A stretch of DNA of 64,000 nucleotides from Clostridia bacterium (GTDB taxonomy: Bacteria > Bacillota > Clostridia > Christensenellales > Borkfalkiaceae): positions 1-64,000 of the forward strand of contig JAFQEV010000059.1 in assembly GCA_017398825.1 (NCBI GenBank). Reading direction: 5' to 3'. Position 1 is the stretch's first letter. Each line of letters starts with the position of its first letter. The notes beneath the pieces were generated by a model. It was not told the origin of the DNA, did not search any database, and saw nothing but the letters and a program-made list of their open reading frames with translations. Shown here one piece after another: positions 39,900 through 52,964 of this stretch. The position numbers and the translations under genes are program-made.

Positions 39900-40124
39900 C
39901 TACTTTATTATTCCAAAACTCTTAATCGCAACTGCCGTTGCGGTAACCGTTACCTTATAACAATCTTTTTCCGCCTCAACGGAAATATTAACGCCTCCGT
40001 CAAGGTTAAAATACTCGGATAAAAGATTGTATGCATCGTAACAAATCATTTCAGATGTGTCTTTACTAAGCTTTAATCTATCGTTTAAAATTATATCGTT
40101 AAGAGCATTTTCTTTCCTTTTCAT
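39900..40124 (-). CDS. minE: MinE-like cell division topological factor
   Basis: A 74-residue protein whose start overlaps the minD stop by 4 nt. ALNDIILNDRLKLSKDTSEMICYDAYNLLSEYFNL matches the MinE pattern (contact helix followed by DRLxL and a helix), and the end VNISVEAEKDCYKVTVTATAVA matches the last beta strand of MinE's topological domain. Family similarity is weak, so the call rests partly on position. It would drive MinD oscillation to place the septum. No minC is next to it. Confidence 0.72.
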   Translation of the reverse strand: MKRKENALNDIILNDRLKLSKDTSEMICYDAYNLLSEYFNLDGGVNISVEAEKDCYKVTVTATAVAIKSFGIIK

Positions 40125-40903
40125 AATCTGCGCTTAAGCTCCTTTCTAATACTGCCCCAAAACCCAGAATACTTTTTGAGATAATCATACGTTTTGTAAC
40201 TTTTCCCCTGTAGATTTTGCGCTATGATTTTTATTGCCTTTGCACTCTCGCCAACCAACCCTTGTGCGTATACGGAATTAAATTCGTCAAGCTCGGGAAT
40301 AACGCCTAAAATCTCAGTTTTTAAAGTGTTTTCGATATCCGTTTCGGATAGGCTTTTCCCGCTTAAAACAAGGTCGCCTCTTATCTTATTTACTATTATG
40401 GAAATGTTTTTGAGGGAATAGCTTTTGAGTATTGAAATCACTTTATCCGCATCGCGTACGCTCGACACCGTTGGCGTTACCACAACGATTGCGTATTCCG
40501 CCGAATTTACCGCTCGGTGAAAGCCTATATCTATCCCTGCTGGGCAGTCGATAAGTATATAGTCGAAAAGCCCGTCAATCTCCTCGATGGCACGCTTTAC
40601 GCCCTGTCCGCTAACCTCTGAAGAGGTGAGCGTATGGCAAGACGGCAGTACGAATAAATTCTTGTTGAGAGGGCTTTCAACGAGTGCTTGTTTTACACGG
40701 CATTTGCCCGAAATAGCGTCCGATAGGTCGAAAATCGCCTTATTTTCAACCTCGGTTAGAACGTCTAAATTGTTGAGACCCAAGTCACCGTCAACAACGG
40801 CAACCCTAAAACCGCTGTCGGCAAGCTTTAGCCCTAAATTTGCAGTTATAGTCGTTTTTCCAACCCCGCCCTTGCCCGAGGTTATTACGTATCTTTTAGC
40901 CAT
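40121..40903 (-). CDS. minD: Septum site-determining ATPase MinD
   Basis: A 260-residue ParA/MinD-type ATPase. Deviant Walker A is KGGVGKTT near residue 10; VVDGDLGLNNLDVL, IDCPAGIDIGFHRAV (Walker B-like), VVTPTVSSVRDADKVI and INKIRGDLV follow. The C terminus FWGSIRKELKRRL is an amphipathic membrane-targeting sequence typical of MinD. It recruits MinC and MinE to the membrane. Followed by minE with a 4-nt overlap. Confidence 0.95.
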   Translation of the reverse strand: MAKRYVITSGKGGVGKTTITANLGLKLADSGFRVAVVDGDLGLNNLDVLTEVENKAIFDLSDAISGKCRVKQALVESPLNKNLFVLPSCHTLTSSEVSGQGVKRAIEEIDGLFDYILIDCPAGIDIGFHRAVNSAEYAIVVVTPTVSSVRDADKVISILKSYSLKNISIIVNKIRGDLVLSGKSLSETDIENTLKTEILGVIPELDEFNSVYAQGLVGESAKAIKIIAQNLQGKSYKTYDYLKKYSGFWGSIRKELKRRL

Positions 40904-40970
40904 AACTATACTTTAAAGCATTGATAGTGAGATATTATATATATGATTGTTGAATAATGGTTTTTTTTGT

Positions 40971-41000
40971 AATAAAAAAGCGTGAGATAACTCACGCTTA
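40971..41000 (-). terminator. Terminator after the ROK-like gene (beyond its repeats)
   Basis: AAGCGTGAG/CTCACGCTT hairpin with T-run on the minus strand. It follows a triple palindromic repeat behind the ROK-like gene, and lies before minD. Confidence 0.82.
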
Positions 41001-41012
41001 ATTTGTTTTTAC

Positions 41013-41075
41013 GTTAAGAAGTTAGTTGCAAGATAACGCGCTTATACACCGCAAATAATTGATTATATAAGGCGT
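41013..41075. repeat. Family 1 palindrome, short copy
   Basis: First of three head-to-tail copies in the 410-bp gene-free stretch between minD and the ROK-like gene. Begins GTTAAGAAGTTAGTTGCAAG and ends AAATAATTGATTA; the central hairpin is missing. Confidence 0.65.
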
Positions 41076-41192
41076 TAGTTGCGAGCAGAAGAAGGCTCGA
41101 CGGCATGTTATCGGGCAAGACTAACCTTGTCGGTTGTCTTGGTCGTAACTTGACGGCAGTAACGCACTTATGCGATGCAAATAACGACTTAT
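41076..41192. repeat. Family 1 palindrome, middle copy
   Basis: Begins ATAAGGCGTTAGTTGC, ends AAATAACGACTTAT. Central stem CAAGACTAACC/GGTTGTCTTG closely resembles that at 17277-17524. Confidence 0.8.
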
Positions 41193-41317
41193 TTAAGGCG
41201 TTAGAAACGAGTTAAGCAAGGCTCGACAAGACGGGGCGATTACGATAGACCTTATCGGTCATCGTAAATGCAACGGCTTGGCAGTAACGATGCATAACGA
41301 AGTTTATAACGACTTAA
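41193..41317. repeat. Family 1 palindrome containing the ROK-like stop codon
   Basis: Begins TTTAAGGCGTTAG, ends TATAACGACTTAAA. The ROK-like stop triplet (41314-41316) lies inside the terminal TTAA of the element. Inner stem TACGATAGACC/GGTCATCGTA. Confidence 0.82.
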
Positions 41318-42672
41318 AGTTCGGGTAAGCTTGCAGCTGCAATAGACTGACCTACGCGCTTGTTAGACTCGTCAGGCATTTGGAGCTTAATTCCTGCATA
41401 CTGGGGGAATTCTGCTTTGATTACTTCGTTTGCCTTTTCTAAGATAATATCGCCACCCTTACCAGAGGTTACGCGACCTAAGAGCAAGCCGTGCTTGATA
41501 TCGTAAAATTCGCTATAGTATGCGATAGTGTAACCGAGGTAAATACCTATGCAAGCATAAATATTTTTAGCCATCTCATCACCTTCAGCCATAAGTTTTT
41601 GAATAACTTTTAACTTTTCAGCGGGAGATAAACCCTCTTCAAACTTAAAGCCGGCGTTTTCAGCAAGCTTTATAACGCTATCTTGAGAGAAGTATTTAAC
41701 GCCGCAGCCATAGTCACCCGACCATTCGTCAACCATAGCGCCTTTGTTATAATCAACGGGAGCGAAAGCAAGCTCGTTGAGCCAACCCTCTAAGCAACCC
41801 TCGCGATTTATGTAACCAACCGCCTCGCTTGTTCCCATTGCGATACCTAAAACTGCGGTGTCTTTTAAATCCATTGCGCCGGCAAGAGCAGTAACGTCAC
41901 CGTCGTTAGCAACCTCGATGGGCGCACCGATTTCCTTAGCAATGTCCATATACATGGTCTTTACGTGCTTTTCAAAATCGTCCTCAGGAACTTTTAAGAA
42001 TAACGATGCTACCATTAATTTGTTATCAACGTAAACGCCTGCGGAAGAAACACCGATAGCGTCAACCCTCGGCATTTTGCTTGCCGCGGTTTTCATTGAT
42101 TCCATAATGCCGTCGTACTGATAGTGCCAGTCAGAGTTGAGTTTGGGGTGCCAAACAACCTCTTCACTATATACAACCTCGCCATCGATAACAGCGGAAA
42201 CCTTTCTATCTGAACCACCAGCGTCAAAGCCGATACGGCAACCGTCTAAGTGACCGCCGACTTTTAAGGAACAGCTCTTAGCCTCGGGGAAATCTTTATC
42301 TTCAACGTATTCAACCTCGAAAGGTCTTTCATAAACGCCTGACATAAACTTTTCGTCAAACGCTCTCTCACCCGTTTTGGTGTAAGCTGATTTAATTCTT
42401 TCATAGATATACTTATCACCGGAAAGTATAATTTTATAACCACCTGCAACCCAAAGAATAGTTTTAATTATTCTTTCAGCAACACCGTAGTTTTCTTCTC
42501 TTTTATTATCGTCGGCAAAAATTTCAAGATTGTAGATAAAGTTATAACCTTTATTTCTCTCTACGCAAATCTTTAAAGTCTTGCTCTCTTCTTTTTTAAC
42601 AGCCTCTCTAAATTCGTTGAGTTTAACTATCATCGGGTAGTAATTTTTATCGTATACGGGAGTAAATTTCAT
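41314..42672 (-). CDS. ROK/hexokinase-superfamily protein with extra N-terminal domain
   Basis: A 452-residue cytoplasmic protein. From about residue 155 it has the actin-like ATPase fold of ROK sugar kinases: GFDAGGSDRKVSAVIDGEVV (phosphate 1), VDAIGVSSAGVYVDNK, VANDGDVTALAGA with the likely catalytic Asp, and GIAMGTSEAVGYI (phosphate 2). The classical ROK zinc motif is not visible. The first 150 residues (KLNEFREAVKK, VAGGYKIILSG) are an unrecognised added domain, so function may be sugar phosphorylation or sensing. GGAGAAGGCT sets the start at 42672 rather than 42684. Confidence 0.75.
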   Translation of the reverse strand: MKFTPVYDKNYYPMIVKLNEFREAVKKEESKTLKICVERNKGYNFIYNLEIFADDNKREENYGVAERIIKTILWVAGGYKIILSGDKYIYERIKSAYTKTGERAFDEKFMSGVYERPFEVEYVEDKDFPEAKSCSLKVGGHLDGCRIGFDAGGSDRKVSAVIDGEVVYSEEVVWHPKLNSDWHYQYDGIMESMKTAASKMPRVDAIGVSSAGVYVDNKLMVASLFLKVPEDDFEKHVKTMYMDIAKEIGAPIEVANDGDVTALAGAMDLKDTAVLGIAMGTSEAVGYINREGCLEGWLNELAFAPVDYNKGAMVDEWSGDYGCGVKYFSQDSVIKLAENAGFKFEEGLSPAEKLKVIQKLMAEGDEMAKNIYACIGIYLGYTIAYYSEFYDIKHGLLLGRVTSGKGGDIILEKANEVIKAEFPQYAGIKLQMPDESNKRVGQSIAAASLPEL

Positions 42673-42771
42673 AGCCTTCTCCATTTTAATATTTTATTCC
42701 ATACTATATTAGCACAATTAAATTTATTTTAAAAGGGGTTTTACAAAAAAACTTTAGATTTTTTTATAAAA

Positions 42772-42802
42772 TAAAAAACAACGGAAAATTTCCGTTGTTT
42801 TT
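42772..42802 (-). terminator. Terminator of the amino-acid ABC operon
   Basis: AACAACGGAAA/TTTCCGTTGTT hairpin with T-run on the minus strand, behind the ATPase gene. Confidence 0.87.
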
Positions 42803-42804
42803 AG

Positions 42805-43641
42805 TTATAAAACTTTGGATAAAAAATCTTTAAGCCTTGGGTTTTGAGGATTAGAGAAAAACTCTTTGGGATTGTTTTCTTCCTTTATGACGCCCTCGTC
42901 CATAAATATAACTCGATTTGCTACCTCTCTTGCAAAGCCCATTTCGTGAGTTACGATTACCATCGTCATATTCTCTTTAGCAAGCTGGCGCATAAGTTCT
43001 AAAACCTCGCCTACCATTTCGGGATCAAGAGCGGAAGTCGGCTCGTCAAACAAGATAACCTTGGGGTCCATAGCGAGCGCTCTTACGATTGCTATACGCT
43101 GTTTTTGACCGCCTGATAAGGTTGAGGGATACGCCTCGGCAAACTCTTCAAGCTGAATGCGCTTTAATAGCTCCATCGCCTTTTGATTTGCCTTTTCTTT
43201 GATAGTTTTAAGATCGTCACCCAAATCAAGCAAAGGAGTTTTTTCCTTAGAGAAAAGGTTTTTAATTTTTATTTTAAAGTTTTTAAACTTTAACTTGCTA
43301 CGGTTTTTCTTTGCTACTAATACGGGTGCTAACGTGATGTTATCTATTACGTTTAAATTGTTGAACAAGTTAAACTGCTGAAACACCATACCGATTTTTT
43401 GGCGATGAACGTTTATATCAACCTTCATATCGGCAAGGTTCTCACCGTCAAACCAAATCGCTCCGGAAGATGCGTCTTCCATACAGTTTAAACATCTCAA
43501 AAAAGTAGATTTACCGCAACCGGAAGGACCTATAACTACGATAACTTCACCCTTATAAACGTCAAAATCGATACCTTTTAAAACCTCTTTTTCACCAAAA
43601 GATTTCTTAAGTTGCTGTACGCTTAATATTACTTCTTTCAT
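42805..43641 (-). CDS. Polar amino-acid ABC transporter ATPase (GlnQ-like)
   Basis: A 278-residue ATPase: Walker [10 protein letters not shown] (38-46), Q-loop Q88, signature LSGGQ (175-179), Walker [14 protein letters not shown] (195-207), H-loop in [10 protein letters not shown]. Usual length is about 240; the excess is a lysine-rich insertion at about residues 112-146 ([19 protein letters not shown] and on) between the Q-loop and signature helices, which would protrude near the membrane-facing side. The start overlaps the permease stop by 4 nt. It powers amino-acid uptake with the two upstream genes. Confidence 0.93.
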
Positions 43642-44411
43642 AACTGCACCTTAGCCTTGCGGGTTTTTTTGCGTTTTGAATTAGTTGCGCTTCTATCACT
43701 TCTTGCAAATAGCTTTTCAATACCCCTAACGAGTAAAGTTATTAAAAGCACCAAAATGATATAAACTACACCGAGTATTATGTACGGGATAACAAATTCA
43801 TAGACTTGATTAGCCGTTGCAATGTTTCTAAGCGCTTGATAAAGGTCAACTACCGTTATAAAGCTTAAAACTGACGTTTCCTTAATCAAAGTGATAAACT
43901 CGTTGCCAAGAGTTGGCAATATGTTTTTTATCGCTTGAGGAATAACTATTTTTATCATAGTTGTTCCGTAGCTCAAGCCCAAACTTCTGCCCGCCTCCAT
44001 TTGACCAACGTCAACCGACTTTATGCCACCGCGCATTATCTCCGAAACGTATGCACCTGAGTTAAGTCCGAATATAATTACGCCTACAGCCTCAGGGTCA
44101 ATACCCCTAACGCCGATCATAGGTAAAAATACGTAATACGCCAAAAGAAGTTGAACCATAATAGGCGTACCGCGGAAGAACGCGGTGTAAACGGCACAAA
44201 TTTTATCTAAAATTCTTACCGATAACTTATACTTTGGTGCAACTTTGACAGCAGCGATTAGCGTACCTATTAAAATACCGATAATAAGACCTAAAACCGC
44301 AATTTTCACGGTTATTAAAAGTCCATTACCTAACATTTTAACAAAGTTGTTATTCCAGTTGTTGTAGGATACTTTATCTATAAATATATCCCATTTCAAA
44401 GACCAGTCCAT
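43638..44411 (-). CDS. Polar amino-acid ABC transporter permease
   Basis: A 257-residue HisM/GlnP-type permease with five membrane segments. [30 protein letters not shown] is the HisMQ N-terminal signature; the EAA loop is [35 protein letters not shown]. It ends with a strongly basic tail ([17 protein letters not shown]). Start set at ATG 44411 because AAAGGTG precedes it, rather than 44438. A perfect hairpin separates it from the binding-protein gene. Confidence 0.93.
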
Positions 44412-44432
44412 AAACACCTTTAACACACTAAT

Positions 44433-44453
44433 TCCCACAACAACGTTGTGGGA
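44433..44453 (-). promoter_or_regulatory. Intercistronic hairpin between binding-protein and permease genes
   Basis: TCCCACAAC, 3-nt loop, GTTGTGGGA: a perfect 9-bp stem without a T-run, about 20 bp before the permease start. Probably protects the upstream part of the mRNA or causes partial termination so that binding protein exceeds permease. Confidence 0.7.
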
Positions 44454-44486
44454 AAGTAGCGTTTATATAAAAATTGTAAACTTAAA

Positions 44487-45329
44487 TTAGTTGTATGATG
44501 CAACGATTGCAGCAGCGGGAGCGTTGTCTACTACTACTGCGTAGATATTGCCGTTGATAACGTCATACGCAGCTAAAGCAGCGCTATCGTATCCCTTACC
44601 TTCGATATTAGTAAAGCCTGCAACGTAATCTACCGAAGTAGTACCGTTTTGATAACCGATTTTCTTACCGGTAAGACCTGCTAAAACAGCCTCAACTTCC
44701 GCTTGAGTGGTGCAGTTGTCAAAATCAGTATTGTCAGCAGCAACAATGATGTTTAAAGATGCATTGAAGTACTTAGTGGTGAAACGATAACCTGCACGGT
44801 CGGGAGATACAGTCATACCTGCCATACCGATATCTGCATAACCTGCGTCAAGAGAGGGAAGAATTGCGTCAAAGTCAATGTTCTTAATAATTAACTCAAG
44901 ACCCATCTTAGATGCATAACCTGCAGCGATTTCCATATCAACGCCGTAGATTTTACCGTTTTCAATGTATTCAAACGGTGAGAACGGGCAGTTAGTTGCA
45001 ACAACGAACTTGCCTGCTCCAACGTCACCAGCCTCGTTAGTACCAGTACCGTCACCAACGTAGTTATAACCAACCTTAGTACCTTTGTTTTCAAAGTACT
45101 TAGCCATAATAGCATCGAAAGTACCGTCTGCCTTAATTTCAGCAAGATATTCGTTAAAGCTGGTTTCTAAAGCTACGTTATCCATCTTCATAGCGAAAGC
45201 GTACTGCTCGTCACCAAGGGGAACGTTGATAAGCTTTAATTGATCGCCATCGTCCTTACAAGCAGTCAAAGCCATTGCTGCAGTAAAGGCGAGAACAAGA
45301 GTTAACATAATAGTCAATAATTTTTTCAT
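44487..45329 (-). CDS. Amino-acid ABC substrate-binding lipoprotein, circularly permuted
   Basis: A 280-residue SBP_bac_3-type lipoprotein (lipobox ALTAC, C24). Unusually, the segment that normally ends this family, LKLINVPLGDEQYAFAM followed by LETSFNEYLAEIKADGTFDAIMAKYF (residues 31-79), comes directly after the signal peptide. A Gly/Asn-rich linker (about 82-106) follows, then the normal beginning KFVVATNCPFSPFEY (107-121), the ligand arginine region GMTVSPDRAGYRF (R178), LTGKKIGYQNGTTS, and the ligand aspartate VVVDNAPAA (D268), after which the chain ends at residue 280. All elements are present once, so the protein looks permuted rather than broken. It feeds the downstream permease and ATPase. 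Confidence 0.9.
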   Translation of the reverse strand: MKKLLTIMLTLVLAFTAAMALTACKDDGDQLKLINVPLGDEQYAFAMKMDNVALETSFNEYLAEIKADGTFDAIMAKYFENKGTKVGYNYVGDGTGTNEAGDVGAGKFVVATNCPFSPFEYIENGKIYGVDMEIAAGYASKMGLELIIKNIDFDAILPSLDAGYADIGMAGMTVSPDRAGYRFTTKYFNASLNIIVAADNTDFDNCTTQAEVEAVLAGLTGKKIGYQNGTTSVDYVAGFTNIEGKGYDSAALAAYDVINGNIYAVVVDNAPAAAIVASYN

Positions 45330-45366
45330 AAGTTTTCTCCTTATATTTATTTAATATTGTTTAATT

Positions 45367-45395
45367 ATTATATATTCAACGAAATGATATGTCAA
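45367..45395 (-). promoter_or_regulatory. Promoter of the amino-acid ABC operon
   Basis: Perfect consensus on the minus strand: TTGACA (45395-45390), 17-bp spacer, TATAAT (45372-45367). AAGGAG before the binding-protein start. Confidence 0.85.
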
Positions 45396-45454
45396 ACGTT
45401 TTTGAATAAAATTAAAATTTATTCATTTTTGCATGCATAAATGCATAAAAGATA

Positions 45455-45485
45455 ATAAAAAAACGAGAGAAATCTCCCGTTTTTA
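45455..45485 (-). terminator. Terminator after the CDF transporter gene
   Basis: AACGGGAGA/TCTCTCGTT-type hairpin with T-run on the minus strand. Confidence 0.78.
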
Positions 45486-45509
45486 AAGTTTTATAAATAA
45501 TTTGCTTGT

Positions 45510-46673
45510 TTAATTATATGATTTATCAATCGTGATAACAGCGTCAAACTTAGGATAGGTTTGCTTTATCATACGGCAAAGCCCGTCTTTTACCTGTTGC
45601 TCGGTCATCTCGAGATTGAACGGCATAACGCAATCGAAAATTACGATGTTTCTGTACTTGCCGTCAACAATTCTAACGTCGTGAACGGAAAGGTTTTCGT
45701 TTACACGCTTTACGTTATCGTGTAAAAACTTTCTCATTTCAACAGCTAAAGGATTAGTCGTTGAAACGGGATCAAAGTGAATAACTATTTCAAGGTTATC
45801 CTCTTCTAAAAAGATTTTTTCAATCTTGTCAATTAGCTCGTGGCTAAGTATTACGTCTCCCTCTGCAGCCATTTCAACGTGAACGCTTGCAAACGTTCTA
45901 CCAACGCCGTAATCGTGAACGATAAGGTCGTGTATGCCTAAAACACCATCGTAGCTTAAAAGCTTATTCTTGATTTTATCAACCGTTTGCTTTTCGGGCG
46001 GTTTGCCAAGAAGACTTGCCAAAGTGTCCTTTAAAAGCCCAAGCGCACTTACCATTATAAATACTGCTACGGCTATTGCCATAATTCCGTCGAGCGAAAA
46101 GGATAAATACGGGCTTAATATCAAAGATATTAAAACTGCGGTGGTGGAGATTGCGTCGTTGCGCGCGTCAACAGAGGTTGCTCGCAAAGTATCAGAGTTT
46201 ATCTTCTTTCCAGCCGAGCCGTTGAGTATCGACAATAAAATTTTTGCCACGATTGAAAGGGCTAAAATTACTACCGCTAAAACGGAAAAAGTTACCGCTG
46301 ACGGAGCTATTACCTTTTCTACACCGCTCTTTAAAAGCTCTACGCCGATTACCATAATGAGTATAGTTACGATAAACGCCGAAACGTATTCGTACCTACC
46401 GTGCCCGTACGGGTGCTCCTTATCGGCAGGGCGAGAAGACAACTTAAAGCCCACAAAGCTTATAACGCTGGAAGATGCGTCGCCAAAGTTGTTGAGCGCA
46501 TCGGCAACGATTGCCACCGAGCCGGATATTATACCTGCAAACAGCTTTACACCAAAGAGTAAAATATTGAATATTATGCCTATAACGCTTGCAACTTTTC
46601 CGTATGCGGAACGCACTTTTTGGTCGCAAACGTCGTCAGCATTTTTTATAAAAAGTTTAAAAAAATTAGCCAT
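45510..46673 (-). CDS. Cation diffusion facilitator (CDF) transporter
   Basis: A 387-residue metal efflux protein with six membrane segments and a C-terminal cytoplasmic domain. SGSVAIVADALNNFGDASSSVISFVGFKLSSRPADKEHPYGHGRYEYVSAF holds the metal-site pattern of TM2 (here DxxxNFGD rather than HxxxD) and the DKEHPYGHGR loop; SVDARNDAIST holds the TM5 pair. The Asp/Asn combination suggests Mn2+ or Fe2+ rather than Zn2+ (inference). Start at 46673 with AAGG upstream; it overlaps tsaD by 8 nt. Confidence 0.88.
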   Translation of the reverse strand: MANFFKLFIKNADDVCDQKVRSAYGKVASVIGIIFNILLFGVKLFAGIISGSVAIVADALNNFGDASSSVISFVGFKLSSRPADKEHPYGHGRYEYVSAFIVTILIMVIGVELLKSGVEKVIAPSAVTFSVLAVVILALSIVAKILLSILNGSAGKKINSDTLRATSVDARNDAISTTAVLISLILSPYLSFSLDGIMAIAVAVFIMVSALGLLKDTLASLLGKPPEKQTVDKIKNKLLSYDGVLGIHDLIVHDYGVGRTFASVHVEMAAEGDVILSHELIDKIEKIFLEEDNLEIVIHFDPVSTTNPLAVEMRKFLHDNVKRVNENLSVHDVRIVDGKYRNIVIFDCVMPFNLEMTEQQVKDGLCRMIKQTYPKFDAVITIDKSYN

Positions 46674-47733
46674 TAAATACCTTAGTTGCCGTGATTTCAA
46701 TAAACGCGTTTGCGTTTAAAGTTAAATCGGCAAAGTTTTTGTTTAAGTATTGAAGATAGCCCTCAGCGCCTATCATCGACGCATTGTCCGTGCACAACTT
46801 TTTCTCGGGTAAAACGAGTTTTACACCCTTCTTTTTGCATTCAGCAACGAGTTTTTCCCTAAGATAGCCGTTTGCCGAAACGCCACCGCCAACCGATAGC
46901 ACTTTATATCCCTTTTCTTTAACGGCGGAAAGGGCTTTTTTAACGAGCACGTCTAAAGCGGAAGATTGAAAGGAACAAGCTAAGTCTTCCCTACTATAAT
47001 ATTCGCCTTTTTGCTCCTTGTTGTGAACGTAATTGATAACTGCCGTTTTAAGCCCGCTATAAGAAAAGTCATAGCCTTTTTTGCCCTTGAGCATTGCGGG
47101 GAGTTCTATATTGTTTTCACCCTCTTTCGCAAGCCTTTCAACGTTAGGTCCGCCCGGGTACTCTAAACCCAAAACTCTTGCAACTTTATCAAAAGCCTCG
47201 CCGGCAGCATCGTCAAGCGTACCGCCCAAAACTTCGTAGTTATAATAATCGCGAACGTCAATAATCGCGGTGTGCCCACCGCTTGCAAGCAAACATATAA
47301 AAGGGGGTTTTAACGCCTTATCGGTCAAGTATCCAGCCGAAACGTGACCGCGAACGTGGTTTACCGGAACGAGCGGAATTCCCAAAGAATAAGCAAGGGC
47401 TTTAGCGTACGATACGCCAACGAGCAAAGCGCCTATTAGACCCGAGCCGTACGTTACGGCTATTGCATCTAAATCTTTTAAGGTAATGCCCGCCTCTTTA
47501 ACAGCTTTTTCAACCGTTAAAGATATTGCCGTGGTGTGCATGCGCGACGCAATTTCCGGCACTACTCCACCAAAGGGAATATGCTCGGTCATTGAACTCA
47601 TTATAACCGAAGAGAGTATTTCTCTTCCGCCCTTTACAACCGATGCGGCAGTCTCGTCGCAACTCGATTCTATAGCAAGTATTAAGGCATCTTCTTTTAA
47701 AGATGCCGTTTTTATTTTATCAAAATATTTCAT
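46666..47733 (-). CDS. tsaD: tRNA N6-threonylcarbamoyladenosine transferase TsaD
   Basis: A 355-residue Kae1/TsaD ATPase-fold protein that transfers the threonylcarbamoyl group to A37 of ANN-decoding tRNAs. Motifs: LAIESSCDETAASVV, GGVVPEIASRMHT, AVTYGSGLIGALLVG, VNHVRGHVSAGY (metal-binding histidines), LLASGGHTAI, GEAFDKVARVLGLEYPGGP and SVGGGVSANGYLR. About 12 extra residues precede the usual start. Overlaps prfB by one nucleotide and the CDF gene by 8 nt, so it is in an operon with both. Confidence 0.96.
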   Translation of the reverse strand: MKYFDKIKTASLKEDALILAIESSCDETAASVVKGGREILSSVIMSSMTEHIPFGGVVPEIASRMHTTAISLTVEKAVKEAGITLKDLDAIAVTYGSGLIGALLVGVSYAKALAYSLGIPLVPVNHVRGHVSAGYLTDKALKPPFICLLASGGHTAIIDVRDYYNYEVLGGTLDDAAGEAFDKVARVLGLEYPGGPNVERLAKEGENNIELPAMLKGKKGYDFSYSGLKTAVINYVHNKEQKGEYYSREDLACSFQSSALDVLVKKALSAVKEKGYKVLSVGGGVSANGYLREKLVAECKKKGVKLVLPEKKLCTDNASMIGAEGYLQYLNKNFADLTLNANAFIEITATKVFNG

Positions 47734-48830
47734 TACGATTTTTTCAAATAATCAACGATAAAGAGGTCGATATCGCCGTCCATTACCGCTTGAACGTTGG
47801 AGTTTTCAGCGCCCGTTCTGTGATCCTTTACCAAAGTGTAGGGGCAGAATACGTAAGAGCGGATTTGGCTACCCCACTCTATCTTTTTAATCTCGCCCTT
47901 AATCTCTTGCGCCTCAGCCATCTTTTCAGCCTCTCTGCGCTCAACGAGCTTACTCATAAGCATTCTCATTGCTTGCTCGCGGTTTTGAATTTGCGAGCGC
48001 TCGTTTTGGCAGGCAACGATAATGCCCGTAGGCAAGTGAGTTATTCTTATTGCGGACTCAGTTTTATTAACGTGCTGACCGCCTGCACCCGAGGAACGAT
48101 AGGTATCAACCTTTATATCTTCAGGGCGAATTTCAATGCTCTCGTCGTTTTCAATTTCAGGCATAACCTCAACAGATGAAAAAGAGGTTTGCCTCCTCGC
48201 GTTCGCATCGAACGGAGATATTCTAACAAGCCTATGAACGCCTTTTTCAGCCTTTAAGTACCCGTAAGCGTTAACGCCTTCAACCCTAAACGAAACGGAT
48301 TTTATGCCCGCGCTATCGCCTTCTAAGCGGTCAAGCTCGGTAATTTTGTAGCCGTGTTTTTCAGAGTATAAAATATACATGCGGTAAAGCATTTCAGTCC
48401 AGTCGCAAGCCTCAGTACCGCCAGCGCCAGCGTGCAAAGTCATAAGTGCGCTCGAGGAATCGTATTTACCGCGAAGAAGGGCTTGAAGACGCATTTTTTC
48501 AATATCCTCTTCAGCCTCCTTAAGCTCAGCCTCAACCTCGGTCATAAAGCTATCGTCGTTTTCCTCTTCGGATAAGGTTATCATCTCTTCCGCGTCTGAA
48601 ATTGCCTTTTCAGCCCTATCAAACACCTCTATTTTGTTTCTTATAGCTTGCGCCTTTTTGGAATATTCTGCAGACTTTTTAAGGTCGGTATACACCTCTT
48701 CCTTTTCAAGCTCCTTTTCAAGCGAGGAAAGCTCAGTTCTCGCAGTATCGATATCGAGAGAATATCCCGCCTCTTTTAAAGTTTCCTTAAGGTCGGCTAT
48801 TTTTTGCCAGTATAAATCAGTTCTAATCAT
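47733..48830 (-). CDS. prfB: Peptide chain release factor 2
   Basis: A 365-residue class I release factor recognising UGA/UAA. The recognition motif SPF is seen in RISPFDANARRQTSF, and the peptidyl-hydrolysis GGQ in SSGAGGQHVNKTESAIRITH. The chain is encoded in one uninterrupted frame from the ATG at 48830: the usual programmed +1 frameshift with in-frame UGA near codon 25 is absent, the region reading LKEAGYSLDIDTARTEL. Autoregulation by that route is therefore lost here. It is followed by tsaD with one shared nucleotide. Confidence 0.95.
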   Translation of the reverse strand: MIRTDLYWQKIADLKETLKEAGYSLDIDTARTELSSLEKELEKEEVYTDLKKSAEYSKKAQAIRNKIEVFDRAEKAISDAEEMITLSEEENDDSFMTEVEAELKEAEEDIEKMRLQALLRGKYDSSSALMTLHAGAGGTEACDWTEMLYRMYILYSEKHGYKITELDRLEGDSAGIKSVSFRVEGVNAYGYLKAEKGVHRLVRISPFDANARRQTSFSSVEVMPEIENDESIEIRPEDIKVDTYRSSGAGGQHVNKTESAIRITHLPTGIIVACQNERSQIQNREQAMRMLMSKLVERREAEKMAEAQEIKGEIKKIEWGSQIRSYVFCPYTLVKDHRTGAENSNVQAVMDGDIDLFIVDYLKKS

Positions 48831-48885
48831 AATTTTCGTTCTTAGTTAAAATTTTATTTTTCGCATAGGTTGCCGTGCTCAAACC

Positions 48886-48943
48886 CTCAATACTTGTATC
48901 GCGAAGTATTTCACGGTTTTGCTGTCGCTTGTTTAAACTGAGG
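48886..48943. repeat. Direct repeat between secA and prfB, copy 1
   Basis: CAATACTTGTATCGCGAAGT and following bases to GTTTAAACTGAGGG, matching 49076-49137. Outer arms CCCTCA/TGAGGG and inner ATACTT/AAGTAT can pair, so each copy is itself a hairpin. Part of the 311-bp gene-free stretch. Confidence 0.72.
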
Positions 48944-49031
48944 GCGAAGTTTACACAATGGTTGATTAAATTAAAACCGTCAAATGCGAGCAAGACGATT
49001 AGTTTCTCTTGGTTCTTTGTTTATTTCAGTC

Positions 49032-49082
49032 GTATTTGGCAATTGTACACGTACTTATCGTACGGAATCAATTGACAAATAC
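49032..49082. repeat. Long inverted repeat between secA and prfB
   Basis: GTATTTGGCAATTG and CAATTGACAAATAC (13 of 14 bases pair) enclose a GTAC...GTAC-containing interior. It adjoins the direct repeat at 49076, so the whole 48886-49137 stretch looks like another palindromic mobile element. Confidence 0.68.
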
Positions 49083-49137
49083 TTGTATTGCGAAGTATTT
49101 CACGGTTTTTATATCAACCGTTTGTTTAAACTGAGCC
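49076..49137. repeat. Direct repeat between secA and prfB, copy 2
   Basis: CAAATACTTGTATTGCGAAG and following bases to GTTTAAACTGAGCC, ending 4 bp before the secA stop codon (49142). Confidence 0.72.
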
Positions 49138-49141
49138 TATA

Positions 49142-51829
49142 TTACTGCCCACAGCAGTTCTTGTATTTTTTACCGCTACCACAGGGGCAGGGGTCGTTTC
49201 TTCCTACTTTCTTAGCCTTTACGATAGTGCCGGTGGGTCTATTTTCAGAGCTACCGCCACCCTCTTGAAGTTCCTTTTTAGCCTCTTGCCTCTTAGGAGT
49301 TGCTTTTACCTCGGACTTTAATAAAATTCCAACGGTATCTACTTGAATGCGCTCAATCATATCCTCGAACATATCAAGACCCTCGCGCTTGTAGGCGTTG
49401 ATGGGGTTTTCGTGAGCGTAACCGCGGAGGGAAATGCCTCTCTTTAAGGTATCCATCGCGTCAATATGGTCAATCCACTTGGTATCAACGTTCTTGAGAA
49501 GTACTACCCTTTCAAGCTCGTCAAAATTAATGCCGAGTTCTTTGCATTTAGCGATTTTTTCCTCGTAGATTTCAATTACCTTTTTAACCGTTCTATCAAG
49601 GATAGTTTCGTAATCCCACTTTTCAAGTCGAGCGGGAGTGAGGTAGTTAATGCCCTCGGGTAAAACCTTTTCCTCGAGTGCCTTGTTGAGCTTTTCCCCA
49701 TCCCACTTAGCAGGCTCTTGACCTACGTTTACCGTTTTAGAAATTATGCCGTTAACGATATCGGGAATTAAGTTTAAAATCTTTTGGTGAGTATCCGCTC
49801 CGCGAAGAACGGCGTTTCTTTCCTCGTAGATAACTTGGCGTTGAGTATTCATAACGTCGTCATACTCAATGATTTGACGGCGAATACCGAAGTTTCTACC
49901 TTCAATAGTCCTCTGCGCGTTCTCAATCTGGCGAGCGAGCATTTTGGACTGCATAGGCGTGTCCTCGTCTACTTTAAACATATTGTAAACGGATTTCAAC
50001 CTCTCACCGCCGAAACGCTTAGCCAAATCATCTTCAAGCGAAATGTAGAAAAGCGAAGAACCGGGGTCGCCTTGACGGCCTGCACGACCTCTGAGCTGGT
50101 TATCAATACGGCGCGATTCGTGGCGCTCAGTACCGATAATTCTCAAACCGCCGAGTTTTGATACCTCTTCCTTTTCAGCGTCGGTAATAGCGGTGTGCTT
50201 TTCTAAAATCTTGCGATAGTCCTCTCTAACTGCTAACACCTCTTCGGAAACGTTTTGAACGTAAGAGGTAGCAAGTTCTATAACGCTCGGGTCTATTCCC
50301 TTGTTGATAAGCTCTTGCTTTGCAAGATATTCAGGGTTACCACCGAGCAAAATATCCGTACCACGACCTGCCATGTTGGTTGCAATGGTAACAGCGCCCT
50401 TTTTACCAGCCTGAGCGATAATTTGAGCTTCTTTTTGGTGGTTCTTAGCGTTTAATATGTTGTGCTTTACTCTATTTTTAATAAGGTGCTTGGAAATCTC
50501 TTCAGATTTTTCTACCGTAACCGTACCAACTAAAACGGGTTGACCTTTTTCGTGCGCCTCGATAATATCTCTGATTATCGCTTTCATTTTACCGCGCTCG
50601 GTAGAATATATTACGTCAGCCTCGTCACGCCTAATTAAAGGACGGTTGGTGGGAATTTCCAAAACGTCAAGCCCGTAGATAGTTCTAAACTCCTCTTCCT
50701 CGGTCTTGGCAGTACCCGTCATACCAGAAAGCTTTTTGTAAAGCCTAAAGTAGTTTTGGAAAGTAATGGTCGCGTGTGTTTTGTTCTCGTTTCTAACGGT
50801 AACGTTTTCCTTTGCCTCGATTGCTTGGTGCAAACCGTCGCTATAGCGCCTACCTATCATAATACGACCGGTAAACTCGTCGATAATCAAAACCTCGCCG
50901 TCCTGAACGAGATAGTCCCTATCTCGCTTAAAGATGTGGTGAGCCTTTAAAGCCTGTTGAATGTGGTGAGATAAATCGGCGTTTTCAATATCCGAATAAC
51001 TCTCTATTCCAAAGAATTTTTCAGCTTTCATTGCACCCGATTCGGTGAGTTGAACGGATTTATCCTTAACGTCCACCGTATAATCGTCTTCCGCAACGAG
51101 CGTCTTTACGAAACGGTTGGACTGAATATAGAGTTCGGAAGACTTTCCGCCCCTACCTGAAATGATAAGAGGTGTACGCGCCTCGTCGATTAAAATAGAG
51201 TCAACCTCGTCGACAATAGCGAATTCCAAACCCCTTTGTACCATTGAACTAAGATTAACTTTCAAGTTATCTCTCAAATAGTCAAAGCCGAACTCGTTGT
51301 TCGTGCCGTAAGTTATATCGCAGGCATACGCCTCTCTCTTTTGATCGTCAGTAAGACTGTGAACGTTTACGCCGACGGTAAGACCTAAGTACTTGTAAAC
51401 CTTTCCCATCCACTCCGCGTCACGCGAGGCGAGGTAATCGTTGACGGTAACTACGTGAACGCCCTTACCCGTCAATGCGTTAAGGTATGCAGGAAGGGTA
51501 GCCATAAGCGTTTTACCTTCACCCGTTTTAAGCTCGGCAACTCTGCCCTCGTGAACGCACACACCACCCATAAGTTGAACTCTGTAGTGGCGCATATTCA
51601 AAACTCTAAAGCTTGCCTCTCTAACGGTGGCAAAAGCGTCCGGCAAAATATCGTCAAGCGTTTCGCCAGCCGATAATCTACCCTTTAAAATATTAGTTTG
51701 AGATTTGAGTTCTTCCTCACTCATTGCCTCGTAGCGCGGTGAAAGCGCCATAATTTTATCGGCAATCTTGCCTATGTTTTTAAGCCCCACTCTCGTATCG
51801 TGGGTTAAAATGTACTTAATTAAGCCCAT
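49142..51829 (-). CDS. secA: Preprotein translocase ATPase SecA
   Basis: An 895-residue export motor. Walker A in VAELKTGEGKTLMATLPAYL, Walker B region AIVDEVDSILIDEARTPLIISG, the cross-linking domain, GTAKTEEEEFRTIYGLDVLEIPTNRP, ATNMAGRGTDI in the second nucleotide domain, and the QLRGRAGRQGDPGSSLFYISLEDDL stretch. It ends in the SecB/zinc motif GRNDPCPCGSGKKYKNCCGQ. Full length. Own promoter at 51864-51892; AGGAGACTACC supplies the ribosome site. Confidence 0.98.
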   Translation of the reverse strand: MGLIKYILTHDTRVGLKNIGKIADKIMALSPRYEAMSEEELKSQTNILKGRLSAGETLDDILPDAFATVREASFRVLNMRHYRVQLMGGVCVHEGRVAELKTGEGKTLMATLPAYLNALTGKGVHVVTVNDYLASRDAEWMGKVYKYLGLTVGVNVHSLTDDQKREAYACDITYGTNNEFGFDYLRDNLKVNLSSMVQRGLEFAIVDEVDSILIDEARTPLIISGRGGKSSELYIQSNRFVKTLVAEDDYTVDVKDKSVQLTESGAMKAEKFFGIESYSDIENADLSHHIQQALKAHHIFKRDRDYLVQDGEVLIIDEFTGRIMIGRRYSDGLHQAIEAKENVTVRNENKTHATITFQNYFRLYKKLSGMTGTAKTEEEEFRTIYGLDVLEIPTNRPLIRRDEADVIYSTERGKMKAIIRDIIEAHEKGQPVLVGTVTVEKSEEISKHLIKNRVKHNILNAKNHQKEAQIIAQAGKKGAVTIATNMAGRGTDILLGGNPEYLAKQELINKGIDPSVIELATSYVQNVSEEVLAVREDYRKILEKHTAITDAEKEEVSKLGGLRIIGTERHESRRIDNQLRGRAGRQGDPGSSLFYISLEDDLAKRFGGERLKSVYNMFKVDEDTPMQSKMLARQIENAQRTIEGRNFGIRRQIIEYDDVMNTQRQVIYEERNAVLRGADTHQKILNLIPDIVNGIISKTVNVGQEPAKWDGEKLNKALEEKVLPEGINYLTPARLEKWDYETILDRTVKKVIEIYEEKIAKCKELGINFDELERVVLLKNVDTKWIDHIDAMDTLKRGISLRGYAHENPINAYKREGLDMFEDMIERIQVDTVGILLKSEVKATPKRQEAKKELQEGGGSSENRPTGTIVKAKKVGRNDPCPCGSGKKYKNCCGQ

Positions 51830-51863
51830 GGTAGTCTCCTACGTTTTTTATATATACTTAAAT

Positions 51864-51892
51864 ATTTTACTATATTTTATCGTTTAAGTAAA
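51864..51892 (-). promoter_or_regulatory. Promoter of secA
   Basis: TTTACT (51892-51887), 17-bp spacer, TAAAAT (51869-51864) on the minus strand. Confidence 0.62.
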
Positions 51893-51903
51893 CAGTTTTT
51901 TTG

Positions 51904-51940
51904 CAAAAAAAGCACCGTTATTTATGAAAATAACGGTTTT
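51904..51940 (-). terminator. Terminator after comFC
   Basis: ACCGTTATTT/AAATAACGGT hairpin, with T-run on the minus strand, overlapping the end of the gene. Confidence 0.85.
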
Positions 51941-52666
51941 TTAATGTTGTTTTACAATTTTTGACACGCTCGCAAGCGTTAAAACGCTAACCTTTACCGC
52001 TCCAGCTTTTTTGAAAGCGGTGGACAATACGTCTACGGTAGAGCCCGTGGTCAAAACGTCGTCAATGAGCAAAACGCTTTTACCTTTAACAAGTTTTCCG
52101 TCCACTTTGAACGTTCCCTTTAGGTTCTTAACTCTCTCACTCATAGAGAGGTTTGCTTGATTTTCAGTTTCCTTAATCTTGGTGGCACACTCTTCCAACT
52201 TAACGCCTGAAAGCTTGGAAAGTTCCTCCGCAAGTAACCGTGCTTGATTGTACCCTCGCTTTTGTTCGCGGTTTTGATGCATAGGTACGAACGTAACGAT
52301 ATCCGAAGAAAGCTTTTCCGCCTTATACACTTCAAACATTTCACGAGCGAAAAACTCTGCGTGATAACGCGCGTTGTTGTACTTAAAGTTTTGGATTACT
52401 ATACTTAACGGGTGGGTGTATTCGTAAACGCTACGAGCTACGTCAAAGCCTATATTTTTCTCTATGCACGAGTCGCAATACTCAGTTTTGTACGGTGCTT
52501 GACGCCCGCAATGTAAACACTTGTTTTCGCCGATTTTAACGATGTTTTTCAAACATTCATCACAAAAATATCCGCTGAAAATTTCACGCCCGCAGGCGTT
52601 GCACGTCCAACCCGTGTTAAAGAGTGAACGCTTTATTAAATTGTAAGCGTTTTTAAATTTACTCAC
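51941..52666 (-). CDS. comFC: ComF-family phosphoribosyltransferase-like protein
   Basis: A 241-residue protein with two N-terminal zinc-binding pairs (CNACGREIFSGYFCDEC and CLHCGRQAPYKTEYCDSC) and a C-terminal phosphoribosyltransferase domain ending in the PRPP loop VLLIDDVLTTGSTVDVL. ComFC-like proteins support DNA uptake with the ComFA helicase, which is not in the window, and are widespread in non-competent bacteria. Overlaps the LysM gene upstream by 8 nt. Confidence 0.9.
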   Translation of the reverse strand: MSKFKNAYNLIKRSLFNTGWTCNACGREIFSGYFCDECLKNIVKIGENKCLHCGRQAPYKTEYCDSCIEKNIGFDVARSVYEYTHPLSIVIQNFKYNNARYHAEFFAREMFEVYKAEKLSSDIVTFVPMHQNREQKRGYNQARLLAEELSKLSGVKLEECATKIKETENQANLSMSERVKNLKGTFKVDGKLVKGKSVLLIDDVLTTGSTVDVLSTAFKKAGAVKVSVLTLASVSKIVKQH

Positions 52667-52964
52667 AAACCACCTGCATAAACGGATAGATATAGTTTAT
52701 CCCGTTTATTTCGTAAAGTTTTTCAACCGTAACACCGAGAACGCCTGCAACGCTTTCAGGCGTATCGCCTACTTTTACGGTGTACACCCGAGAATACCTC
52801 TTTATATATAGGCAGTCCCCCTCCTTAATTTCGCCCGACAAGCAGTTATCCTTAATAATTATCTGCTTACTCGTTGAAAACCTATTTGCAATGCTATCTA
52901 AGGTATCGCCTATCTCGCAGTAATAGATACCGCCGTCACTAACAGTCGATTGTAACTTTATCAT
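52659..52964 (-). CDS. Small double LysM domain protein
   Basis: About 101 residues made almost entirely of two LysM modules (YYCEIGDTLDSIANRFSTSKQIIIKDN and VYTVKVGDTPESVAGVLGVTVEKLYEINGI). No signal peptide or anchor is seen, unusual for a peptidoglycan-binding module, so it may be an intracellular or spore-coat type LysM protein. The start is uncertain: the ATG at 52964 lacks a good ribosome site, and a TTG at 52988 lies directly behind AAAGG. Translationally coupled to comFC. Confidence 0.78.
   Translation of the reverse strand: MIKLQSTVSDGGIYYCEIGDTLDSIANRFSTSKQIIIKDNCLSGEIKEGDCLYIKRYSRVYTVKVGDTPESVAGVLGVTVEKLYEINGINYIYPFMQVVCE

Follow-up and report, generated by a model that had tools for sequence, protein, structure and literature searches.

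Previous reports have described natural circular permutation in the binding proteins of ABC importers. TpMglB-2 (Tp0684) of Treponema pallidum is a circularly permuted lipoprotein that binds glucose and has relatives in Gram-positive gut bacteria (PMC4990184), and the glycine-betaine-binding proteins OpuAC and ProX are circularly permuted relative to each other (PMC2395249, CPSARST). In DNA methyltransferases, permutation by duplication has been reported together with documented intermediates (PMC3320104). Permuted binding proteins are already known; repeated switching between at least three orders is rarely encountered in protein evolution. The gene analyzed here lies in a stretch of 64,000 nucleotides of a Clostridia bacterium (the whole of which is called the window below). 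A preliminary description had proposed that it encodes an amino-acid-binding protein of the SBP_bac_3 family, circularly permuted by a cut at the second hinge, and had suggested as checks a profile search with the two halves swapped and a search of related genomes for the same order; relatives with the ordinary order would have argued against it.

A circularly permuted SBP_bac_3 protein in an importer operon

The gene (44487..45329, on the minus strand like all features given below) encodes 280 amino acids plus a stop codon, with its segments in the order B-A1-A2. It starts with a lipoprotein signal peptide (residues 1-23, MKKLLTIMLTLVLAFTAAMALTAC; 45261..45329), followed by the lipid-acceptor Cys24 at the end of the lipobox (45258-45260). 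Segment B (residues 31-82; 45084..45239), which corresponds to AncQR 183-231, is the normal C-terminal part of domain 1 and now comes first. A Gly/Asn-rich linker of variable length among relatives (residues 83-104; 45018..45083) bridges the old C and N termini, and leads to segment A1 (residues 105-191; 44757..45017), the normal N-terminal part of domain 1, which holds T173 and R178. Segment A2 (residues 192-280; 44490..44756), as delimited by its segment HMM and by PDB alignments reaching residue 276-278, constitutes domain 2, holds D268 and stops at the second hinge.

Compared with PF00497, the native chain gave two pieces in reversed order, scoring 89.9 bits, above the curated cut-off of the family (26.4). 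Residues 109-202 matched Pfam positions 2-96, the remainder of domain 2 continuing to N280, and residues 31-82 (LKLINVPLGDEQYAFAM...AEIKADGTFDAIMAKYFEN) matched the C-terminal end of SBP_bac_3, positions 97-131 of 132, as a separate piece (E 3e-5). A contiguous start-to-end match in chain order was not met by the native chain and appeared only after the swap, when the halves rejoined as A1-A2-B gave a single match to positions 2-131 of 132 (97.7 bits); we accordingly classify the protein as a circular permutant rather than a canonical SBP_bac_3 member. Single full-length matches were also obtained with the swapped chain in the PDB, to AncQR (12-231, 109 bits), ArgBP, ArtJ and others. According to the segment HMMs and the swap test every segment is present in single copy, none being duplicated or missing. 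The features of a circular permutant, i.e. segments present once, in rotated order, with a linker between the old ends, are all met, and the window gene is a real circular permutation of SBP_bac_3. The proposal was thus upheld by the very search it had suggested, and its statement that each element appears once agrees with the Pfam and PDB matches and with the comparison of segments. The place of the cut was also confirmed: in the PDB alignments the A part stops at AncQR 175 and the B part begins at AncQR 183, a break that locates the cut at the second hinge (the A2-to-B junction), taking for this hinge the position that we assume in GlnBP.

The pocket residues expected in an amino-acid-binding protein, an Arg for the carboxylate and an Asp for the amino group, were found where the preliminary description had put them, R178 and D268 aligning with the AncQR motifs. 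D268 was invariant (100%) in 33 permuted relatives, while R178, T173 and C24 were each conserved in at least 90%. Residue N113 presumably occupies the position of GlnH Asp10, which makes a polar amino acid, not specified further, the likely ligand. Membership of the sugar-binding group represented by TpMglB-2 ('Cluster Bc') was not met, Pfam giving PF00497 only; the NCBIfam matches were mostly to amino-acid-binding proteins, with zero sugar-binding families. The genome of the window contains only one other clear SBP_bac_3 protein (L001, G000:C22:31075-31713), a distant relative with the ordinary order.

The AF2 model of the permuted chain had a mean pLDDT of 90 and a pTM of 0.78, with values of approximately 94-98 in segment B, low values over residues 91-100 and a minimum around 60 in the linker. 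Against ArgBP, GlnBP and related structures, residues 97-280 of the model gave Z 14-16, the alignments running up to the end of the chain. Because Foldseek and VIA are sequential aligners, they go no further than residue 280 and cannot follow the moved residues 31-82; VIA rows whose model range started at residue 49-53 were excluded, as those residues were paired in chain order with chain N-termini. That residues 31-80 complete domain 1 does not rest on a superposition, then; it rests on the swap test, on the confident AF2 model and on the parallel identity of the segments to those of ordinary-order homologues (59% in A1 and 47% in B with respect to locus L010). An ordinary fold and ligand pocket should be expected, the changes being the attachment point of the lipid anchor and a single chain crossing between lobes. 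The predicted path would run from the lipobox Cys to the second hinge and through the last 50 or so residues of domain 1; the flexible linker would then join the old ends and lead into the rest of domain 1, now contiguous, from which one crossing would take the chain into domain 2, where it would end.

A sigma-70-type promoter (TTGACA-17-TATAAT, 12/12 consensus positions; 45367..45395) is located 37 bases upstream of the start codon. Directly downstream of the gene are its partners, an amino-acid ABC permease (43638..44438; PF00528, E 1e-23) and an ABC transporter ATPase (42805..43641; PF00005, E 8e-36), so the requirement for a PAAT-type importer, a cognate permease and ATPase, is met, and the normal operon partners and promoter noted from the letters alone are corroborated. 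The operon ends in a hairpin resembling an intrinsic terminator (42774..42802), with a 13-pair stem followed by a T run, identified by consensus match only. A permease was adjacent or fused in 104 of 106 B-A1-A2 loci, in all 28 A2-B-A1 loci and in 35 of 37 with the ordinary order, A1-A2-B. The dN/dS ratio between the window gene and its same-order relative L034 (72% identity) was 0.12 (0.124), with a dS of 1.6, near saturation; the gene is under purifying selection. Activity of the protein is inferred from this selection and from conservation, without binding or transport data. Altogether, we are highly confident that this is a working lipid-anchored SBP_bac_3 protein (type II / cluster F) of a three-gene ABC importer, in circularly permuted form, its ligand binding and its origin being inferences.

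Chain orders among relatives

Proteins were searched in 201 genomes of the same family and in a collection of named genomes, most of the genomes surveyed being MAGs, and their order was typed with the segment HMMs B, A1 and A2. This survey, another of the checks suggested, identified B-A1-A2 as the order of most close relatives of the window protein; over all searches, that order was found in around 100 loci from many independent assemblies and many family-level groups. The outcome that would have counted against the permutation, relatives with the ordinary order, was not met, since the nearest ones (72, 60, 58...% identity) are permuted; some relatives nearly as close do have the ordinary order. 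Among named records, homologues came from one Butyrivibrio and from MAGs designated Clostridia, Bacilli, Oscillospiraceae or Clostridiales; several of these records originated in the gut of deer, goat or yak. To avoid order bias, a second search used an alignment containing two copies of the unit in a row, so that any rotation matches in one piece. In the same taxonomic order (396 genomes), the matches listed, counted by hand from match ranges, comprised about 34 B-A1-A2, 32 A2-B-A1 and 85 ordinary chains, one chain cut inside A1 and five multi-domain fusions; relatives with the B-A1-A2 order are over-represented in this tally, because the query rows were all of that type. At the class level (391 genomes) the same three orders were found again, some in single-contig genomes. 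The recurrence of B-A1-A2 in about 100 loci, single-contig genomes included, is far beyond chance. Two side observations concern individual permuted proteins: in L007, L008 and L009 the AGxT motif is preceded by NAIV where ADIG is otherwise conserved, possibly reflecting a different ligand, and L068 (G557:C93) has an in-frame TAA near its end, which may indicate a pseudogene or an assembly error.

The same gut Clostridia carry the ordinary A1-A2-B order, B-A1-A2 and A2-B-A1, plus a fourth cut in one assembly. Chains of the A2-B-A1 type (L078, L079, L080, L081, L083-L089, L125-L130, L145-L154 and L180) begin at the KIGVQ.GTTG strand of domain 2 and continue through B and the linker, with A1 last. 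One helix was left at the C terminus in one group (TTxxEVExxL), its equivalent (SLDDL) being N-terminal in another, so at least two different cut points exist for this order. The AF2 model of an A2-B-A1 form (pLDDT 92, pTM 0.80) aligned end to end with OpuAC (Z 13.5, 216 aligned residues, rmsd 4.9). The fourth cut, inside A1, corresponds to a gene in one MAG (L082, also recorded as L186; G313:C99, ~50.8-51.8 kb) that begins YYGLDMEIA, finishes PFSPFEYLA (ending with VVLTNVPFSPFEYLA), and has its own signal peptide and a permease-like ORF downstream. It is located near a contig end and was not found again in 20 genomes of its own family, and is therefore considered provisional. Fused forms were also identified. 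Importers of about 750-1190 amino acids (L162, L163, L164, L181 and L182) carry the permease behind a tandem of two or three binding domains, in A2-B-A1 register, L181 including the ATPase too, and single permuted domains fused to the permease exist in both registers (L042, L022, L028 and L030; L148-L150).

For a phylogenetic analysis, proteins were rotated to A1-A2-B and a tree of 93 of them was obtained with IQ-TREE over 239 columns; groups were set by chain order before the tree was inferred, and the A2-B-A1 row L129 was omitted, as were some rows with long branches, including that of Butyrivibrio (L044). The orders interleave, and 15 changes of order are required on this tree; when only strongly supported branches are considered, the three labels still need no fewer than 7, 11 and 5 changes. 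A single origin of any order was found in zero bootstrap trees, and in AU tests the constraint to a single clade was rejected both for B-A1-A2 (p 3e-57) and for A2-B-A1 (p 3e-7). Identity along the rotated sequence reaches 77, 71 and 70% in the most similar pairs that differ in order. In one cross-order pair (L166/L156) identity was 86% in A1, 72% in A2b and 75% in B; such similar values in all segments indicate that B is the protein's own and not borrowed. The window protein is placed in a well-supported group made up of five B-A1-A2 rows and one of ordinary order, L010. Its oddity is one state of a family that changes order repeatedly, not a one-off.

Vestiges of the linker bear on the direction of these changes. 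In most other ordinary-order relatives the chain continues for no more than a few residues around KYF or KYI. The ends of L010 (GEKVGYTVSI) and L012 (GEKIGYSFVDENN) match the B-side half of the linker of their permuted neighbours (GEKVGYSYVGDG), and those of L090 (FDGTADYTYTNPAR) and L094 (FDGTATFTYTNP), also of ordinary order, match linkers such as FDGTATFSYANKTATPQDG. Such remnants suggest that the change of order probably also reverses, and a reversal from B-A1-A2 to the ordinary order is their simplest reading; they could instead be old C-terminal tails, and the ancestral direction is not fixed. Conversely, the last residues of the linker in the permuted L160 are TTVEEGKL, which match MTVEEGKL, the start of the mature ordinary L168, as expected if an ordinary unit had been fused behind a B segment.

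All three orders occur in the same chromosomal slot within one genus, that of the window. There the operon is flanked by a run of four genes, which we take to be SecA-, peptide-release-factor-, TsaD- and cation-efflux-like, and by ORFs 41317-42684 and 40124-40903. The SBP in the slot has the B-A1-A2 order in the window, A2-B-A1 in G065, G041 and G054, of which the last two share just one flank with the window slot within the stretch read, and the ordinary order in G008 (L195) and G083 (L196), where the operon is inverted and the permease and ATPase are distant. When the G065 locus (L192), from a sister species, was compared with window positions 40100-52700, its ATPase was nearest that of the window (80%), while the best matches of its permease and SBP (77 and 76%) lay in A2-B-A1 operons from other families, the window permease ranking 104th. 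With a native ATPase next to a foreign-like permease and SBP, the SBP-permease pair seems, from these similarities, to be exchanged at this site as a unit. Order changes were counted on the gene tree; transfer thus spreads orders and is not the source of the changes counted.

Taken together, these data make it probable that the three or four orders of the family interconvert and have done so at least 15 times, between pairs up to 77% identical, and that permutation in these Clostridia is frequent and reversible; order would be a labile trait of the importer, perhaps driven by the position at which the anchor or the permease has to be attached.

Origin of the permuted order

The window comes from a 59-contig draft genome, and a normal gene might have been cut and rejoined in the MAG during assembly or annotation. 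This can be practically discarded: L034, from another project, and the other loci of the survey show the same order, single-contig genomes (G747, G775 and G894) are among its carriers, and the signal peptide directly precedes the new start of a gene with a dN/dS of 0.12. The repetition of the order in independent assemblies led us to reject assembly error. Hardly more credible is a non-functional, degenerate remnant, whether of a tandem two-domain SBP or of two broken genes that became fused. Such forms would be stages of permutation by duplication, and fused tandem domains exist, but here all elements are present once, the pocket residues are conserved, both promoter and operon are complete, and the order is maintained among deeply diverged relatives; the dN/dS value, indicative of purifying selection, excluded a pseudogene. 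A C-terminal piece borrowed from another protein was also rejected, B being as close as A1 and A2 in cross-order pairs.

As to how the order arose, the exchange of operon parts between strains could favor one ancient B-A1-A2 permutation followed only by loss and horizontal transfer, without repeated permutation, and because of such exchange species distribution alone proves nothing. This history is nevertheless very unlikely given the counts on the gene tree, where a single clade is rejected for B-A1-A2 and A2-B-A1, and given that the two A2-B-A1 groups are cut one helix apart. We favor permutation by duplication, in which binding domains repeated in frame, like those of the fused multi-SBD importers, would lose sequence from both ends while the signal peptide already present stays in front. 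Any rotation could result, new cut points would arise and reverse easily, and SBP-permease pairs of differing order would be swapped between strains. The existence of tandem multi-domain permease fusions supports this route; these fusions are distant from the clade of the window and already in A2-B-A1 order. Partial-tandem intermediates (B-A1-A2-B or A1-A2-B-A1-A2) were not found in that clade among the loci surveyed, so fission and fusion, in which separate B and A genes would have been rejoined in a new order, remains possible as an origin. Circular permutants are recognised to arise in this way in general (PMC3320104), but we consider it rather unlikely: no locus was noticed in which B or A stands alone as a gene, the divergence of the two parts between orders runs in parallel, and the linker joins the old ends throughout.

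Relation to known systems

With ordinary SBP_bac_3 proteins (PF00497; GlnH, ArtJ, HisJ, T. maritima ArgBP, AncQR), the window protein shares all elements, the R178/T173/D268 pocket, the lipoprotein anchor, the HisQ/GlnP-type permease and ATPase partners and, after the swap, a full-length match; it differs in having the C-terminal 50 or so residues first and a linker between the old ends. TpMglB-2 is, like it, a natural circular permutant of a tethered ABC binding protein. However, TpMglB-2 has a type I / cluster B sugar fold in which N-lobe strands have moved to the C terminus and a fourth crossover has been added, its permuted piece is poorly conserved in sequence, and only one order has been described. 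The OpuAC/ProX case shares circular permutation within type II binding proteins, but that permutation is deep (less than 24% identity) and outside the amino-acid family, and repeated switching is not described there. The GlnPQ-type fused importers (6h30) have tandem SBP_bac_3 domains and are a plausible source of permutants, several of the relatives found here being SBP-permease fusions; the domains of GlnPQ are in the ordinary order, whereas the fusions in our relatives read B-A1-A2-permease or (A2-B-A1)2-3-permease.

DNA methyltransferases also present several circular orders in one family, with tandem intermediates as the proposed route; they are enzymes, and their permutation classes are ancient, in contrast to the switching observed here between sequences 60-77% identical. 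In the literature searched, with most subscription journals outside its scope, neither a permutation of SBP_bac_3 nor repeated, reversible switching of order at such similarity was found. For annotation, these proteins are a warning, since profiles render them as broken pieces, and they offer ready-made natural permutants of a fold much used for biosensors. Most of the natural circular permutants known are isolated pairs of old origin; here, close relatives with the same partners and syntenic positions display several orders, apparent reversals and linker fossils, by which the steps, the rate and the selective cause of circular permutation become directly testable.
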